This document shows, one piece after another, positions 52,318-58,834 of a stretch of DNA of 64,000 nucleotides. The stretch lies in NCBI RefSeq assembly GCF_008973715.1, contig NZ_WBOL01000010.1:62001-126000 (forward strand), written 5' to 3'. Within the stretch, counting starts at the first letter, position 1, and each line of letters opens with the position of its first letter. The position numbers and the translations under genes were made by a program. The notes beneath the pieces were generated by a model. It saw only the letters and a program-made list of their open reading frames with translations. It had not been told where the DNA came from and did not search any database. Source of the DNA: Nitrincola schmidtii. GTDB lineage: Bacteria > Pseudomonadota > Gammaproteobacteria > Pseudomonadales > Balneatricaceae.

Positions 52318-53433
52318 ATGACGCAGTCTGGATGGCGAACCCTCTTTGCCAATGATAGCTTGCCGGACACATCTCACTGGCCTGATTGCCTATCTGAATT
52401 AAAAACGGCTTTCTGTGCTATTCAATCAAGTCAGGATCTTGCCACTCTTAAAGGTTGGCAGCCAGAGCTTGTCAGCGCGCTTCAGGCGATCGATATTCCT
52501 GCATGGCGAATTAGTCAGGTTGTCAGTGATCATAATGATTGGATCTATCGTTTTGCTATAAGAGAATCCCTGGATGAAATGCTTCAGCAAGGTTGGGGGC
52601 ATCCTCCTTGTGATTTTTGTGTGCTGACGCTTGGCTCAGGCGCACGTCATGAGAGTCTACTCGGGCCTGATCAAGACAATGCCATGATATTGCAAGACTA
52701 CCCCCAAGATCGTCACGTCGAAATAGATACTTGGTTTCAGTCATTGGCAGAACGTTTCACTGATAAGTTACACCATGCAGGCATTCCACTCTGCAAAGGT
52801 CATGTGATGGCACGTTGGCCTTTGTGGCGAAAACCTTTAAAAGAGTGGTGTGAACAAATGCGTCTCTGGAGTGGTCGGCGCACGGTGAAGCTGGTTCAGC
52901 TATCCAATATTTTATTAGATTTTGCTCCAGTTTACGGCAATGCTGTGTTGGCTGAGCAGTTCAGGCAATATTTGATTGAGCTGATGCCCAGTGCAGGCCT
53001 TTTTCTAGATGAGATGAATGCATTACAGGATGAGACGCGCGTTGCTTTGGATAGATTTGATCGCTTAGTGGGAGATGATCAAGAAGCTCCTCATCAACAT
53101 GCAATCAATCTGAAGCGCCAAGGTTTGCTTCCGCTGCAAGCGGCGTTGCGGTTATTTTCTTTAAGAAAGGGAATTGCACAGCAAGATTGTCGAGGAAGAC
53201 TGTTAGCGCTGAAATCGATGGGTCTTCTCAGTGCTTCTAAGGCCGAATCCTTAGAAGAAGCCTTATCCTTATTGTTGGCTCTATTACTGGAGTCGCAAAT
53301 GAAAGCCGTTGAATTGAACCGTACACCTGATGGTTGGGTGGATCGGCGCGAGCTGTCAGAAAGTCGTCTGGTTCAGTTAAAAATGGCGCTTATAGAGATT
53401 CGCAGTTTACAAAAACAGGCAGCCACAGCATAA
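52318..53433 (+). CDS. DUF294 putative nucleotidyltransferase without CBS or cNMP domains
   Basis: A 371-residue protein. The first 95 residues are helical; then comes a nucleotidyltransferase core with GSGAR (106-110), Glu112 and the Asp118-X-Asp120 pair (GPDQD), related to the GlnD nucleotidyltransferase fold. A helical DUF294_C region fills the last 140 or so residues. Better-known relatives near acetate-permease genes carry cyclic-nucleotide-binding and CBS domains in front, lacking here. The reaction is unknown. It converges with the symporter-kinase gene (28-base gap), and DUF294 genes accompany this kinase type or ActP in other Gammaproteobacteria, so a shared pathway is likely. Confidence 0.85.
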   Translation: MTQSGWRTLFANDSLPDTSHWPDCLSELKTAFCAIQSSQDLATLKGWQPELVSALQAIDIPAWRISQVVSDHNDWIYRFAIRESLDEMLQQGWGHPPCDFCVLTLGSGARHESLLGPDQDNAMILQDYPQDRHVEIDTWFQSLAERFTDKLHHAGIPLCKGHVMARWPLWRKPLKEWCEQMRLWSGRRTVKLVQLSNILLDFAPVYGNAVLAEQFRQYLIELMPSAGLFLDEMNALQDETRVALDRFDRLVGDDQEAPHQHAINLKRQGLLPLQAALRLFSLRKGIAQQDCRGRLLALKSMGLLSASKAESLEEALSLLLALLLESQMKAVELNRTPDGWVDRRELSESRLVQLKMALIEIRSLQKQAATA

Positions 53434-53461: not shown

Positions 53462-56233
53462 TTAGTGTTCGTTAATTGTCTCGCTCGCTTGCTGATCTGG
53501 CGCTTCAGTTTGCGCTAGCTCCATGATTAAGCTTGCGCCACCGAGTTTCTCTGGATCATCAACCCAGAGTTTTCCGCCCAGATGCGTCAATATCCCTCGG
53601 CAGATAGGTAATCCCAGCCCTGTGCCTTTGGGTCGGCCACGTGGCTGTTCTTTGCTGCCTTGCTCGACTTGATGGAACTTCTCAAAAACTCGATCACGAT
53701 GATCAACAGGGATTCCTGTGCCATTATCTTCAACACGAACGCGATACTGATCCCCTCGTGCGGTTAAAGAAACATGTACCTTGGGTTGGTCTTCAGCAGC
53801 AAATTTACGCGCATTTTCCAATAGATTAATCAGCACTTGTTGTAAACGATCTACATCCGCGATAACCCAGGCAACATCAATATCCAGTTGTAGGGTTAAT
53901 TCAACATTTCGCTCTTCATAAAGACGTGTCACCGCATCGATGGACTGCTTAACAGCCGCAGCAAGATCGATATGCTGAGGTTTGAGTGTCATGCGACCTG
54001 ATTCCAGTCGAGCTAGGTCAAGAATTTCTTCAATCAAGCGTGACAAGCGCTCACTTTCTCTAACGATTACCTCAAGAAAGTGCTGTTGTTTTTCTATCGG
54101 GATACCTTGGTTATCTTTTAGAATCTCAGCAAACGCTCTGATCGAGGTGAGCGGTGTGCGAAGTTCATGACTCACCATCGCCACAAATTCATCTTTTAGC
54201 TTATCTAACTCGCGTAAACGATCATTGGCTGCACGAAGTTCGTTACCGATCCGAGCGAGTTCATTTGATTTCTGTTCTAAGCGTCGATTGTATTCTAGCG
54301 TTTGTGACGTGGTATCGAGAATGCTCAATACTGCTTGAATATCCAGAGCTTCGCCGCGGACAACAGAATTAATCAATACCCTGGCTGAAGAGCTTCCAAG
54401 CGCGCCTGCCAGTTGTTTTTCTGCTCTACTAACCATATCTGGGGACGCTGGCGCTTCATCTTTGATGTTTTTATCTGCATCATTGAAGGCTTTAAAAAAT
54501 CGCTGAGTCGCGACAGGTCCCAGATAACGGGTAAGCAACTGTCTTAGCTCGCCACGACTGGTATGACCTTGCCATAGGTTGGTATGTAAACGATCTTGGC
54601 TAAACGCTTGGGTAAATAACGCCGCCTGAGTTTGTTCCAGGTTCGTTTGGCGAGTGAACTGTGACACCAATAAAATCAAACCCACATTCACAAGCATGCT
54701 CCAGAAAAGTGCATGAGTATGAATATCCAATCCAGTTAAGCCGAATAATTGATAGGGACGAAGCCATTCAATGCCCCAAGGACCTTCGGTAATCAATGTC
54801 AAGGGAAGCCATCCGGACTGAGCAAATCCCGGAATAAGAAGAGTATGACACCAGATAATAAATCCACCGATTAACCCTGCTGCTGCAGCTGTTCGTGTCG
54901 CGCCTCTCCAAAACATACCGAGTAACAGCGCTGGAGCAAATTGTGCGGCCGCTGCAAAGGATACCAAGCCAATCGTGACTAAAGAGTAAGAATCACCGAT
55001 CAAGGCGACATACAAATAGCCTAATAACAGAATAAGAATAATCGCGACTCGGCGAATACTCAGTAGCCATCCACTTAAATCGCTAGTTTGATCCAAATGC
55101 AATCTGCGCCAACGAAGGAGCACAGGCATGACCAGTTGGTTACTGATCATGGTCGATAGTGCAATGGTTTCAACAATAACCATGCTTGTTGCTGCAGATA
55201 ACCCGCCAATAAAAACTAATAATGGCAGATATTCCAATCCCGCAGAAAGGGGCAGGGTCAACACAAAGCTATCGGGTGCGCCGGCTGCTTCTCCTAGCAG
55301 TAACCCAGCGAGGGCGACAGGAATTACGAAAATATTGATAGCTAACAGGTATAAAGGAAATAACCAAGAAGCACGTTTGATATGGCGTTCGTCAACATTC
55401 TCTACCACCAATACCTGAAATTGTCTTGGAAGCGTTAAGAACGCTAGTGTGGCTAACAGCAGTAAGCCGACCCATCCAGCCGCACCGCCTGGTACATTCG
55501 CCATGCCAAAGGTGCCTGCGATATCAGGATGGGCAGCCGCTTGCGCAAAGAGGTCAGTGGGGCCGCCATACATAACAAACACCACAAAAATACCGACAGC
55601 CATAAAAGCGAGTAGCTTAATTAGTGACTCGAAGGCAATAGCCGTGACCATGCCTTCGTGACGCTCACTGGCATCCAGTTGTCGGGTACCAAAGAGGATA
55701 ATAAAAATTGCAAGGACGATAGAGATCCAGAAAGACTGATCCAGTAAAAAGGAGATGTTAGCACCGCTTTGGCGCCCATTCATCTGATAACCCGTGAGGA
55801 CATCAAAACTCACGGTGATGGCTTTCAGTTGCAGCGCGATATAGGGAATGATGCCAATTACCGCAATGCCTGCGACTAATGCACCGATTCCTTCACTTTT
55901 GCCATAACGCGCACTGATAAAGTCAGCAATCGAGGTAAGTCGCTGAGCACGTGCAATTCGAACCATTTTACGAATTAACATCCAGCCGATTAGCATCGCA
56001 ATCGTAGGGCCAAGGTAGATCAGCAGGAAGCTAGGTTCAGCTTCAGCGGCTCGTCCAACACTGCCGTAAAAAGTCCAAGCGGTACAGTAAACAGCGATAG
56101 AGAGCGCATAAACCGTTGACGAATTAATGACCGATCGACCTTGTTCGGCTCTTTTGTCACCCCAAGCAGCAATTAAAAATAGCAATGCTAGGTAACTAAA
56201 AGCGACAAAGAGAACCAGTAATTCATTCTTCAT
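53462..56233 (-). CDS. Symporter-histidine kinase fusion, CrbS/MxtR type
   Basis: A 923-residue protein. The N-terminal half is a sodium/solute symporter (SLC5/SSS) domain of about 13 helices; residues about 560-640 look like the STAC linker domain; then comes a coiled coil and a kinase core with His689 in VSHELRTPLTS, N-box QQVLINLLENA, DNGTGIP and GTGLGLPIC, all intact. CrbS and MxtR kinases of this layout control acetyl-CoA synthetase and acetate use; CbrA is a related amino-acid/carbon sensor. The ligand here is inferred only by similarity. ATG at 56233 is preferred over GTG at 56236 because of GGAG seven bases upstream. The start overlaps the end of the small membrane gene. Confidence 0.9.
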   Translation of the reverse strand: MKNELLVLFVAFSYLALLFLIAAWGDKRAEQGRSVINSSTVYALSIAVYCTAWTFYGSVGRAAEAEPSFLLIYLGPTIAMLIGWMLIRKMVRIARAQRLTSIADFISARYGKSEGIGALVAGIAVIGIIPYIALQLKAITVSFDVLTGYQMNGRQSGANISFLLDQSFWISIVLAIFIILFGTRQLDASERHEGMVTAIAFESLIKLLAFMAVGIFVVFVMYGGPTDLFAQAAAHPDIAGTFGMANVPGGAAGWVGLLLLATLAFLTLPRQFQVLVVENVDERHIKRASWLFPLYLLAINIFVIPVALAGLLLGEAAGAPDSFVLTLPLSAGLEYLPLLVFIGGLSAATSMVIVETIALSTMISNQLVMPVLLRWRRLHLDQTSDLSGWLLSIRRVAIILILLLGYLYVALIGDSYSLVTIGLVSFAAAAQFAPALLLGMFWRGATRTAAAAGLIGGFIIWCHTLLIPGFAQSGWLPLTLITEGPWGIEWLRPYQLFGLTGLDIHTHALFWSMLVNVGLILLVSQFTRQTNLEQTQAALFTQAFSQDRLHTNLWQGHTSRGELRQLLTRYLGPVATQRFFKAFNDADKNIKDEAPASPDMVSRAEKQLAGALGSSSARVLINSVVRGEALDIQAVLSILDTTSQTLEYNRRLEQKSNELARIGNELRAANDRLRELDKLKDEFVAMVSHELRTPLTSIRAFAEILKDNQGIPIEKQQHFLEVIVRESERLSRLIEEILDLARLESGRMTLKPQHIDLAAAVKQSIDAVTRLYEERNVELTLQLDIDVAWVIADVDRLQQVLINLLENARKFAAEDQPKVHVSLTARGDQYRVRVEDNGTGIPVDHRDRVFEKFHQVEQGSKEQPRGRPKGTGLGLPICRGILTHLGGKLWVDDPEKLGGASLIMELAQTEAPDQQASETINEH

Positions 56234-56420
56234 CACTACGCTCCATTACCCAAGCGGTCAGAAGAATCAGGACAAGCCAGCTAGCGAACAACCAGATAGG
56301 CAGCATTGAAAAGCCGTAACTGCCTGGTCTATCAAACAGCAGAACCAGCGGCGGGATAAAAAACAGTAACCCCAGTAGCGTCAAGGAGACAAGACGGCTG
56401 ACCAGAGAAGGGCCTTGCAT
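56223..56420 (-). CDS. Small two-helix membrane protein
   Basis: A 65-residue protein with two hydrophobic segments (about 9-28 and 39-59) joined by FDRPGSYGFSM. No family is named with certainty, but its size and place directly before a symporter-type domain recall the small companion subunits (DUF485/DUF997-like) of SSS permeases. It overlaps the kinase start by about ten bases and follows the exonuclease fusion start by two bases on the same strand, so all are probably one operon. Confidence 0.7.
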   Translation of the reverse strand: MQGPSLVSRLVSLTLLGLLFFIPPLVLLFDRPGSYGFSMLPIWLFASWLVLILLTAWVMERSDEE

Positions 56421-56422
56421 AG

Positions 56423-58459
56423 TTAACCCACCCTCACAGTTTCAGCCGTCGCTTGAAAATCCAGCGCCTGTTGTAGTGTTGTGATTCCGCGAGCTTCAAG
56501 TCGAGGGATAAGGTTTAGCAACAACTCTGCGGTAACTCGCGCATCTCCTAATGCGGTGTGGCGTGTGCCTGCTGGAAAAGTGATCTGAAAGCGATCCGAA
56601 AGAGCATCCAGTCCATGAGTTTCCAAGTCAGGATCGATAGCCCGCGAGAGCAATAACGTATCCAGTACCGGCATGTCGAATTGAAGACCCGCATCTTTTG
56701 CCGGAAGATCCAGCGCCAGAATATCGAAAGCGGCATTGTGAGCAACTAAAACCGCTTGACCTACAAAGTGACGAAAACGCGGCAGAACTACACGCATCGG
56801 TGGAGACTGCTTCACATCTTGCTCATGAATGCCATGTATCGCTGTGCTTTCTGCCGGTATATCTCGCTCGGGATTCACTAATTGGTCAAAGTGCTCATTC
56901 GCCAGTAGCCGGCCATTTAAAATTCGGCAAGCACCAATACTGATGACTCGGTCACCATCACGCAGTTTAAGCCCCGTCGTTTCTGTATCAAAAACCACCA
57001 TTTCGAGCTGGCTGAGCAATTGATTACCTAGTTCTGCATCGGGTGGTGGCAGTTCAGCAATACTGAAATCGTGGAACTCAGGTCTAGAAGTATACTGACG
57101 TTCGGGTTCCGCATAACGATCCGTTGCTGGTAAGGGGATGCGTAAACGGGAATGTTCGCGATCATGATCGGGCAAACACCACCAATCCGAATTATGTTGG
57201 CTTAGAACATCACTAATGCGTGGTGCTAAGGGTTGTTCACTTAGGGGTAGAGTGCGCCACGAATCTAACTGGTGTTGAGAGATAGGGACGCCTAGCCAAA
57301 CAATATCTAAGTAAACTCGTTTATTGCCAAGGCAAAACTCTATTTCGAATGAAGTGCGTTTGCATGCTTGGCGTAAAGCGGGCAGCAAAACCTCCAGCAT
57401 AACTAGTAACGTAGGGCTGTCGGCTCGAAACCATGCAGGGATTCCAATCGGAACCACATCTATCTCACTACTTTCACAGATATCGGTTAAAGCAGCAGTG
57501 AGATCACCTGACCAAGTATCGGTTAAACAGGTTTGATCTAATTGAATCGATTCAAGCACTCGAGAGAGTTGGTCAATTAAATCTCCCATCACTTGGCTTT
57601 CTTCATGCATCGCTTTTTCTAGGCGTGGGCGGATATCACTTTGCTGTGGTGCTCCGCTTAAGGCTTCGGCGGTAGTGGTTAAGCTAGCGGTATGTCCACG
57701 TAACTGAGGTAACAGGTTTGCTAAAGGTTGACGCCAGCGTTGGTGACTTGCATGGGCTTCGGTAGTATCGCTTAAGGTGATTAATGCTTCGCCTTGAGTA
57801 GCGCTCACACGGCGTAAATCGCAGCGCAGCCAGCGATCTTCGTGATGCAATAGAACTTGTCGAGGGCTACCATCCGTGGGGAGTTTTTTTAGTGTTTCAG
57901 CCAAGTTAGGCAGTGGTAAAAGCTGCCCAAGATGCCTGCCTAACCCTAACGCAGGGTGATTACTGAAAAACGCCTTAGCCGCCGGGTTTAACATCAGTAC
58001 GCGTTGATGACGATCACACAAGAGTAGGGGTACTTCTAACACCTCAAGCACCGCTTCTAACTCGTGACGAATGCGAGCAGCATCTTGTGCTCCCGCTTCT
58101 CTGGCAGAGTTGAGTTTTTCTCTATCCTGTCGCCAGCCTTCCCGTAAACGTGAAAAATCCTGACCTAAGTTGCTTAACCACCCTTCTGGTAGAAAGTCAT
58201 CTTTTGCATCAGGATTGGCAGCGAGACGGGCGAATTGGATTTGTAAGTGTCGCAATGGGGCAAAGAGTTTTCTCTCTAACCACACGCCGGCGATTAAGAG
58301 TAATGTGGGTAAAATGGCAACCAGTATCCACAGTATTGTGCGCGACTGAGGGTCGTCGCTAAGTTTGCCATCTAGCAGGGCACCAAATATTAAGCCAGCA
58401 AAGGTAACAAGACCTGTTGCCAACATCCAGATTCCAAGAAGAAACTGTCGTTTAGGCAT
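56423..58459 (-). CDS. Membrane PAS/kinase-like protein fused to a DnaQ-type 3'-5' exonuclease
   Basis: A 678-residue protein: two N-terminal membrane helices (about 8-29 and 42-61), a HAMP-like linker and coiled coil, a PAS domain (about 135-235), a region resembling a kinase dimerisation and ATPase domain without the phospho-acceptor His (the site reads HQRWRQPLANLL, about 239-250) and without ATP-binding boxes, then a DEDDh exonuclease domain (about 485-655). The five exonuclease residues are present: Asp491, Glu493 (FDTETTGL), Asp579 (HNAAFD), His634 and Asp639 (RHTALGDA). It may degrade DNA, RNA or a small nucleotide in response to a signal; substrate unknown. It lies between the response-regulator and symporter-kinase genes. 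Annotated relatives as PolC/DnaQ-like exonucleases exist beside ActP/CrbS-type genes. Confidence 0.85.
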   Translation of the reverse strand: MPKRQFLLGIWMLATGLVTFAGLIFGALLDGKLSDDPQSRTILWILVAILPTLLLIAGVWLERKLFAPLRHLQIQFARLAANPDAKDDFLPEGWLSNLGQDFSRLREGWRQDREKLNSAREAGAQDAARIRHELEAVLEVLEVPLLLCDRHQRVLMLNPAAKAFFSNHPALGLGRHLGQLLPLPNLAETLKKLPTDGSPRQVLLHHEDRWLRCDLRRVSATQGEALITLSDTTEAHASHQRWRQPLANLLPQLRGHTASLTTTAEALSGAPQQSDIRPRLEKAMHEESQVMGDLIDQLSRVLESIQLDQTCLTDTWSGDLTAALTDICESSEIDVVPIGIPAWFRADSPTLLVMLEVLLPALRQACKRTSFEIEFCLGNKRVYLDIVWLGVPISQHQLDSWRTLPLSEQPLAPRISDVLSQHNSDWWCLPDHDREHSRLRIPLPATDRYAEPERQYTSRPEFHDFSIAELPPPDAELGNQLLSQLEMVVFDTETTGLKLRDGDRVISIGACRILNGRLLANEHFDQLVNPERDIPAESTAIHGIHEQDVKQSPPMRVVLPRFRHFVGQAVLVAHNAAFDILALDLPAKDAGLQFDMPVLDTLLLSRAIDPDLETHGLDALSDRFQITFPAGTRHTALGDARVTAELLLNLIPRLEARGITTLQQALDFQATAETVRVG

Positions 58460-58468
58460 GGCTTATTC

Positions 58469-58834
58469 CTATTCCTGAAGAAGGTTCCTAACTTTTTGAA
58501 CCAGCGCTTGGGTTGAAAAAGGTTTGGTGATGTAGTCATCGGCACCCAGTGCCATACCTTTTTCTTTTTCAACCTCACGACCATGAGCCGTCAGCATAAT
58601 CACCGGAAGTCGAGTAAAGCGCTCATCTTTGCGCAAATGTTCGAGTACATCAAAACCACTAATGCCCGGTAAGCTGATATCCAATAGCACTAAATTCGGC
58701 TCGATTTCGCTGATACGTTGAAGCGCGGTTTCTCCATCCTCGGCAGTGGTGACATCAAAGCCTGCCTGCTGCATTAAGAATTCAAGTGATAAGAGGATGT
58801 TAGGTTCATCATCCACAACCAGCACTTTGGTCAT
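58469..58834 (-). CDS. Single-domain response regulator
   Basis: A 121-residue CheY-like receiver with acidic pocket Asp8/Asp9, phospho-acceptor Asp52, Thr82 and Lys104, all intact, and no output domain. GGAG precedes the ATG. As the first gene of the operon with the exonuclease fusion (9-base gap) and the symporter kinase, it is the natural phosphorylation partner of that kinase. CrbR/ErdR, the usual partner of CrbS/MxtR, is a LuxR-type DNA-binding protein, so this regulator would act by protein contact instead. Confidence 0.9.
   Translation of the reverse strand: MTKVLVVDDEPNILLSLEFLMQQAGFDVTTAEDGETALQRISEIEPNLVLLDISLPGISGFDVLEHLRKDERFTRLPVIMLTAHGREVEKEKGMALGADDYITKPFSTQALVQKVRNLLQE

Follow-up and report, generated by a model that had tools for sequence, protein, structure and literature searches.

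An SLC5-STAC-histidine kinase module of Nitrincola schmidtii with a lone receiver, a pseudokinase-exonuclease and a possible nuclease output

The characterised SLC5-STAC kinases CrbS, CbrA and RpuS act via DNA-binding regulators. In the CrbS/CrbR (MxtR/ErdR) acetate switch, as described in the parts of the papers drawn on here, the CrbR regulon includes actP and a gene for a CBS-nucleotidyltransferase (PMC5715377), and in Pseudomonas putida KT2440 one target of MxtR/ErdR is pp_0354, which encodes a CBS protein and shares an operon with pp_0353, encoding an RNase_T-family exonuclease (PMC9927547). In the CbrX-CbrA/CbrB system, the gene for the small two-helix protein CbrX overlaps that of the SLC5-STAC kinase (PMC13022988, PMC6591292), and a cryo-electron microscopy preprint reports that CbrX binds the SLC5 domain (PMC13022988). 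DivL of Caulobacter combines PAS domains with a pseudo-histidine-kinase, by which it reads the phosphorylated form of a receiver (PMC4211667). Here we analyse a 64,000-nucleotide stretch of the N. schmidtii genome (contig NZ_WBOL01000010.1, positions 62,001 to 126,000; hereafter the window), in which an SLC5-STAC-histidine kinase lies beside a two-helix peptide, a lone receiver, a fusion of a kinase-like region with a DEDDh exonuclease, and a DUF294 nucleotidyltransferase. We hypothesize, with a probability that we put at roughly 45%, that these genes form a conserved two-component module with a nuclease output in place of a DNA-binding regulator, in which the signal would pass from kinase to receiver to a pseudokinase-gated exonuclease that opposes DUF294.

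The module and its closest described relatives

The original prediction, made from the letters of the window, was of four minus-strand genes that overlap or lie less than 10 nucleotides (nt) apart, with a convergent DUF294 gene. Every coordinate was confirmed, and the genes are as follows (aa, amino acids):

58469..58834, minus strand: single-domain response regulator (receiver only), 121 aa; Pfam Response_reg at 4-116 is its sole match above cut-off
56423..58459, minus strand: fusion of two membrane helices, PAS, pseudo-histidine-kinase and DEDDh 3'-5' exonuclease, 678 aa; Pfam PAS_4 at 138-236 and RNase_T at 488-647, and hhalign
56223..56420, minus strand: two-helix membrane protein, 65 aa, CbrX-like by position and shape; hydropathy and overlap with the kinase gene
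53462..56236, minus strand: SLC5-STAC-histidine kinase, 924 aa; Pfam HisKA and HATPase_c, and a match of residues 9-623 to PDB 10ed_A
52318..53433, plus strand: convergent DUF294 nucleotidyltransferase, short form, 371 aa; Pfam DUF294 and DUF294_C only

The receiver gene lies 9 nt from the fusion gene and the fusion gene 2 nt from the peptide gene, which in turn overlaps the kinase gene. Scans for promoter-like sites (8 versus 9.3 expected) and terminator-like sites (10 versus 6.7 expected) were uninformative.

The fusion had been described as a membrane PAS/kinase-like protein joined to a DEDDh exonuclease, a description that can now be sharpened, as the kinase-like part is a decayed HisKA-HATPase without its phospho-histidine. 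Hydropathy places two membrane helices at the N terminus, and residues 225-478 align to the HisKA-HATPase core found in the family of the neighbouring kinase (hhalign probability 99.2 local, 99.6 global). An alignment (A2) was made of 52 of the 118 fusion proteins collected below, one of which comes from L085, a twin of L103. In 51 of the 52 another residue stands in place of the phospho-histidine, Glu in 29 and Pro in 11 including the window protein, and a histidine is kept only in L165, in an odd context. The fusion was rejected as an active kinase because the phospho-accepting residue is gone in these 51. Two N-box positions have Asn outside their six commonest residues, and no G-box motifs appear on the fusion side of the hhalign output. 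The exonuclease domain (RNase_T, E 5e-30) is closest by sequence, among solved structures, to PolC-type and epsilon exonucleases, and its five DEDDh residues, D491, E493, D579, H634 and D639, are invariant in all 52 aligned proteins. By sequence, the fusion is thus a pseudokinase-exonuclease. In one genome (G006, 87% complete; L067:7200-9237) the fusion gene is interrupted by a stop, either through decay or through sequencing error.

With DivL the fusion shares a PAS domain and a pseudo-histidine-kinase, a fold relation that rests on hhalign. The two differ in that DivL has a Tyr at the phospho-site and keeps its N and G boxes (PMC4211667), whereas the fusion mostly has Glu or Pro there, has decayed ATP boxes and carries a DEDDh exonuclease.

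The regulator has no output domain, as had been predicted, Response_reg being the only Pfam family above cut-off, and its translation contains residues D8, D9, D52, T82 and K104. Residues 9-623 of the kinase match PDB 10ed_A, a 606-aa histidine kinase chain, with E 2.2e-70; the Pfam symporter model SSF gave no match to it. The kinase has 13 membrane helices by hydropathy, the number given for CbrA (PMC13022988), and motifs of the H, N, G1 and G2 types (SHELRTPL at 689, NLLENARK at 804, DNGTGI at 837, GTGLGL at 871). HisKA and HATPase_c are its only Pfam families above cut-off, and it has neither a PAS nor a receiver domain.

These absences bear on the assignment of the kinase to the CrbS/MxtR type, which was not supported. 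Like CrbS, the module kinase is an SLC5-STAC-histidine kinase, as the 10ed_A match indicates, and acetate genes lie near the module in about a third of the loci (see below), but CrbS is a hybrid kinase, carrying both PAS and receiver domains, with a LuxR-type partner, whereas the adjacent regulator here is receiver-only and lacks a DNA-binding domain, although the kinase may have a distant partner. A separate locus on contig C6 of the same genome (L198) encodes a kinase of 1311 aa that does have PAS and receiver domains. Beside it are genes for a LuxR-type regulator, Acs, DUF4212, SSF-family symporters (one of them ActP-like), a small DEDDh exonuclease and a DUF294 protein with cNMP-binding and CBS domains. 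We name L198 a CrbS/CrbR-type locus from its architecture and neighbourhood, and its existence rules out the module kinase as the CrbS of this genome. The two kinases match over the SLC5-STAC part (42% identity, module kinase residues 7-675).

The CbrA/CbrB arrangement, an SLC5-STAC-PAS-kinase with a sigma54 regulator, differs as well, in that the module kinase has no PAS domain and no DNA-binding regulator lies next to it. A kinase that we take by its position to be CbrA-like is encoded on contig C10 (L200), with the gene of a 459-aa regulator after it. The likeness to this system lies in the 65-aa protein, which has two hydrophobic helices by hydropathy and whose gene overlaps that of an SLC5-STAC kinase, so that by position and shape it is best seen as a CbrX-like kinase subunit. 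It belongs to a conserved family (alignment A3, 20 sequences), for which none of ten members scanned, nor the window peptide, gave a Pfam match above cut-off; assignment to DUF3311 or DUF4212 was rejected, one of the ten matching DUF3311 below cut-off (E 0.021). PDB 10ed, which from its size and content we take to be the CbrA-CbrX structure of PMC13022988, contains a 58-aa protein as chain X, to which neither the peptide nor its family profile gave a match, and the peptide had no significant match to the CbrX-like open reading frame (ORF) of its own genome (4.3 bits, bias 15.1). At L200, a 55-aa two-helix ORF (L200:4531-4698) overlaps the start of the CbrA-like kinase and matches 10ed_X weakly (E 0.34). 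A peptide from a Caldilineaceae metagenome-assembled genome (MAG; L125:5436-5636) matches MAP17, an SLC5-associated human membrane protein, at a sub-threshold E of 0.011 that is probably due to chance and was not used.

The module resembles CrbS/CrbR and CbrA/CbrB in its working but is neither of them. Its parts are known families, and their combination is a variant of the SLC5-STAC-kinase two-component systems with a possible new class of output. No description of this combination was found in the literature searched, outside which most subscription journals fall, and an earlier description may exist. A named defence system was rejected, PADLOC giving single-model matches only (to the DEDDh domain, to the receiver and weakly to the kinase ATPase) and none to DUF294 or the peptide.

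Conservation of the gene set

We collected 118 fusion loci, 38 from a whole-genome set that includes ten other genomes of the genus and 80 from a scan of named genomes, with the window included and L085, on the same contig as L103, dropped. Loci were labelled with profiles derived from the first set, and receivers within 6 kilobases (kb) were counted if above 80 bits on either strand. Within that distance of the fusion there is a receiver in 97 of the 118 loci, a kinase in 74, a peptide in 74 and a DUF294 gene in 78; receiver, kinase and DUF294 are all absent in 12, several of which are on short contigs. For the 79 loci flanked on each side by 6 kb or more the counts are 70, 61, 60 and 56, respectively, and 44 have receiver, kinase and DUF294 together. 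At least one of these three lies within 1.4 kb in 91 of 98 fusion loci, versus 0 of 12 control loci of ordinary DEDDh exonucleases that came from the same search (flanks of up to 1.5 kb, one shorter on one side). The arrangement is thus non-random, and the proposed co-occurrence of the four genes across genomes is borne out, with DUF294 included at most loci.

In 87 of the 118 loci (29/38 and 58/80) the fusion gene is directly preceded by a receiver gene (within 300 base pairs (bp), same strand), and in 71 of 85 measured pairs the two are at most 20 bp apart or overlap, overlaps depending on the start codon taken by the script. Among the 48 named loci with 6 kb flanks, from the best 80, a receiver is directly upstream in 38, and a kinase, a peptide and a DUF294 gene are present in 34, 34 and 33. 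Receiver, fusion, peptide and kinase recur with DUF294 in several orders. The kinase precedes receiver and fusion in L123 and L129, and DUF294 is divergent in L112, convergent in L097 (Marinobacterium alkalitolerans) and co-directional in L129. Because gene order varies, we regard the genes as a functional set and not as one frozen operon.

The receiver appears to be the shared link of this set, because it is kept with the kinase where the fusion is absent and with the fusion where the fetched stretch has no kinase. In all five kinase genomes without a fusion, a receiver recognised by the same profile adjoins the kinase or its peptide, and in L108, L111 and L112, where the fetched stretch contains no kinase, receiver and fusion occur together in the vicinity of DUF4212 and an ActP-like gene. 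The five genomes with receiver and kinase and no fusion could indicate that the receiver mainly signals elsewhere, to a distant transcription factor or phosphotransfer protein, the fusion being a parallel sensor of the same metabolism; lone receivers often act as shuttles. We consider this quite unlikely, since the receiver stays with the fusion in L108, L111 and L112 and since most receiver-fusion pairs are so closely spaced. As a separate observation, L233 and L234 have receiver, peptide and kinase, with no fusion or DUF294 in the fetched stretch and a second receiver-type gene on the other strand, downstream of genes that by eye resemble an ABC transporter operon.

Among 369 genomes of the class, the fusion occurs in 19 (E <= 1e-40, the window's own genome included) and kinase orthologues in 20 (E <= 1e-180); both are found together in 15, versus 1.03 expected (p 3e-19, with kinship ignored). 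All ten other genomes of the genus have the fusion, beyond the exonuclease domain alone, one of them in broken form. The scan of named genomes used exonuclease-domain patterns and gave at least 587 stretches, at least 513 of which encode some relative, ordinary exonucleases probably included; the best 80, which favour closer relatives, were retained, and all 80 score as fusions. These best 80 of at least 513 include Alpha-, Beta- and Gammaproteobacteria and Magnetococcales, and also MAGs titled Nitrospirota, Acidobacteriota, Caldilineaceae and Desulfatitalea, although MAG titles and contigs can be wrong. Co-occurrence of the module genes therefore extends beyond close relatives, to three proteobacterial classes and MAGs titled as other phyla.

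DUF294-exonuclease pairs and acetate genes

The window DUF294 protein has a DUF294 domain with the GS...DxD motif (GSGARHESLLGPDQD at 106) and lacks the cNMP-binding and CBS domains that both other copies in the genome possess; a search against solved structures gave no sequence match up to E 10. Each of the two other copies has a DEDDh exonuclease gene 4 or 5 bp away. From 58 sampled genomes of the class came 23 strong DUF294 places, of which 17 were examined (three of the six omitted were the window genome's own). An exonuclease gene was scored as paired when it lay just upstream of DUF294 or in the stretch of about 0.9 kb covered beyond it. By this measure a DEDDh exonuclease gene lies beside DUF294 in 12 of the 17, in L214 as the fusion itself, and the other 5 have none in the fetched stretch. 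In L231 (3177-5270) one protein joins an exonuclease-like domain, scored at 44.7 bits by our own profile, to CBS-DUF294; the catalytic residues of this domain are lost and Pfam makes no call. The joined protein could be a record of a complex between exonuclease and DUF294. The pair on contig C1 (L201:6897-11207) adjoins a transporter of the BCCT (betaine/carnitine/choline) family, so DUF294-exonuclease pairs are not tied to SLC5 transporters alone. In L135, L138, L157 and L170 a short DUF294 gene directly follows the fusion and another DUF294 gene, which is long in L135 and L170, comes after it, possibly reflecting a division of work.

The pairing bears on what the exonuclease may act upon. 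An RNase_T/DnaQ-type domain with five intact catalytic residues might instead serve RNA decay, the phosphorylated receiver switching a membrane-tethered 3'-5' exonuclease that acts on messenger RNAs (mRNAs) or transfer RNAs of carbon metabolism, with DUF294 a mere neighbour or working on the same RNA ends; for the comparable exonuclease pp_0353, mRNA decay is what the P. putida authors speculate (PMC9927547). That output seems unlikely to us, as it leaves unexplained both the DUF294-DEDDh pairing, in the sample and at both other copies in the genome, and the joining in L231. Both enzyme types found together would also suit a soluble nucleotide messenger made by DUF294 and destroyed by the exonuclease, in the way that cyclases of the polymerase-beta fold and DEDDh exonucleases can act elsewhere, and the motif GSx(A/G)RxE...DxD is intact in all 81 DUF294 copies above 200 bits with the profile. 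Such a messenger is nonetheless rather improbable, no receptor for it having been recognised in the module, and the weak likeness of DUF294_C to the GlnD uridylyltransferase family (one of ten copies, 20.1 bits versus a cut-off of 21) points to protein modification.

Some genetic support for an output of nucleotide type comes from the similar pair in P. putida. There, loss of pp_0353 or of actP-I impairs growth on pyruvate and loss of pp_0354 does not, mutants in any of the three have no defect on 20 mM acetate, and mxtR and erdR mutants grow late on pyruvate (PMC9927547). The protein Pflu5625 has cAMP-binding, CBS and nucleotidyltransferase domains (PMC5715377), from which we infer a DUF294 domain in pp_0354. 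The mutant pattern fits what would be expected if the exonuclease undid an action of DUF294 that holds uptake back, an idea that is not proposed in sections 7 and 8 of PMC9927547. The P. putida operon resembles the module in combining an RNase_T gene and a CBS protein gene under an SLC5-STAC kinase and in its tie to actP-I and pyruvate use; it differs in being under transcriptional control, and the parts of the paper used here describe pp_0353 just as a putative exonuclease of the RNase_T family, with no mention of a pseudokinase. An output of nucleotide type, as suggested in the original prediction, is probable; that it is a nucleotide signal or a modified protein keeps the standing of inference it had.

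Acetate genes recur near the module. One lies within 6 kb of the fusion in 27 of the 79 loci with full flanks, and among the 48 named loci an ActP-like gene is found in 21 and Acs in 14, with ActP-like, DUF4212 or Acs within 6 kb in 24. L123 and L132 have the order Acs, peptide, kinase, receiver, fusion, DUF294, DUF4212, ActP-like gene, and L158 has the same order with an intervening receiver-type gene on the opposite strand. The module of Azonexus hydrophilus (L150) likewise has Acs and ActP-like genes beside it. The ActP labels derive from BLAST to the ActP-like protein of the window genome, and the proteins so labelled in L123, L129, L132 and L158 share just 42-48% identity with it where aligned and could instead be a different carrier of monocarboxylates.

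Proposed mechanism and what it would mean

As the most likely chain we propose that a small carboxylate, or its flux, is sensed by the SLC5-STAC-histidine kinase, which is probably held together with the two-helix subunit and would pass phosphate to the lone receiver. This first half of the chain is drawn from family knowledge and conservation. By analogy with DivK~P on DivL in Caulobacter, the phosphorylated receiver would then dock on the pseudo-histidine-kinase of the fusion. Docking would switch the attached DEDDh exonuclease, which might then remove what DUF294 adds, either a nucleotide product or a nucleotidyl group attached to a protein; for this opposition the basis is one set of mutants together with the gene pairing. 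In this way the cell could set how acetate-like substrates are taken up or activated without transcription.

Several observations weigh against this mechanism. The window DUF294 gene is convergent and so is not co-transcribed with the four genes, and DUF294 lies within 6 kb in just 56 of the 79 fully flanked loci; five of the 79 have no receiver, kinase or DUF294, two of these (L093, L094) being second fusion copies in genomes with the module elsewhere. No acetate genes lie near the module in the window's own genome, and in the whole-genome set they do so in just 3 of 38 loci. The spread is patchy: apart from the window's own genome, the fusion is in all 10 genomes of the genus, in 7 of 25 from the family and in none of the 21 taken from the order's other families. 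At the thresholds used, the kinase is missing from 4 of the 19 genomes with the fusion, and the fusion from 5 of the 20 with the kinase. The DivL analogy is partial, because DivL keeps the N and G boxes that the fusion pseudokinase has largely lost. Finally, the lack of a phenotype for pp_0354 also fits a gene that is idle in the conditions tested.

A more specific version, which we put forward tentatively and regard as rather doubtful, is that DUF294 writes nucleotidyl marks on a transporter, an enzyme or a small partner in acetate or pyruvate assimilation, and that the pseudokinase-exonuclease, under the control of the phosphorylated receiver, erases them. DnaQ-type exonucleases cleave aryl esters of nucleoside monophosphates, which resemble nucleotidylated tyrosine. 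This would be a widespread class of output, giving fast, reversible, non-transcriptional control of carboxylate uptake, for which nitrogen control by GlnD, PII and AmtB offers a comparison.

A nuclease output would set the module apart from the systems of CrbS, CbrA and RpuS. How the CBS/DUF294 protein and the exonuclease paired with it contribute to carboxylate use has yet to be explained, and PMC9927547 calls the precise role of pp_0353 unclear. If the proposed mechanism is true, a simple epistasis prediction follows for P. putida, these orphan enzymes would gain a control pathway, and two-component signalling would gain a nuclease output.

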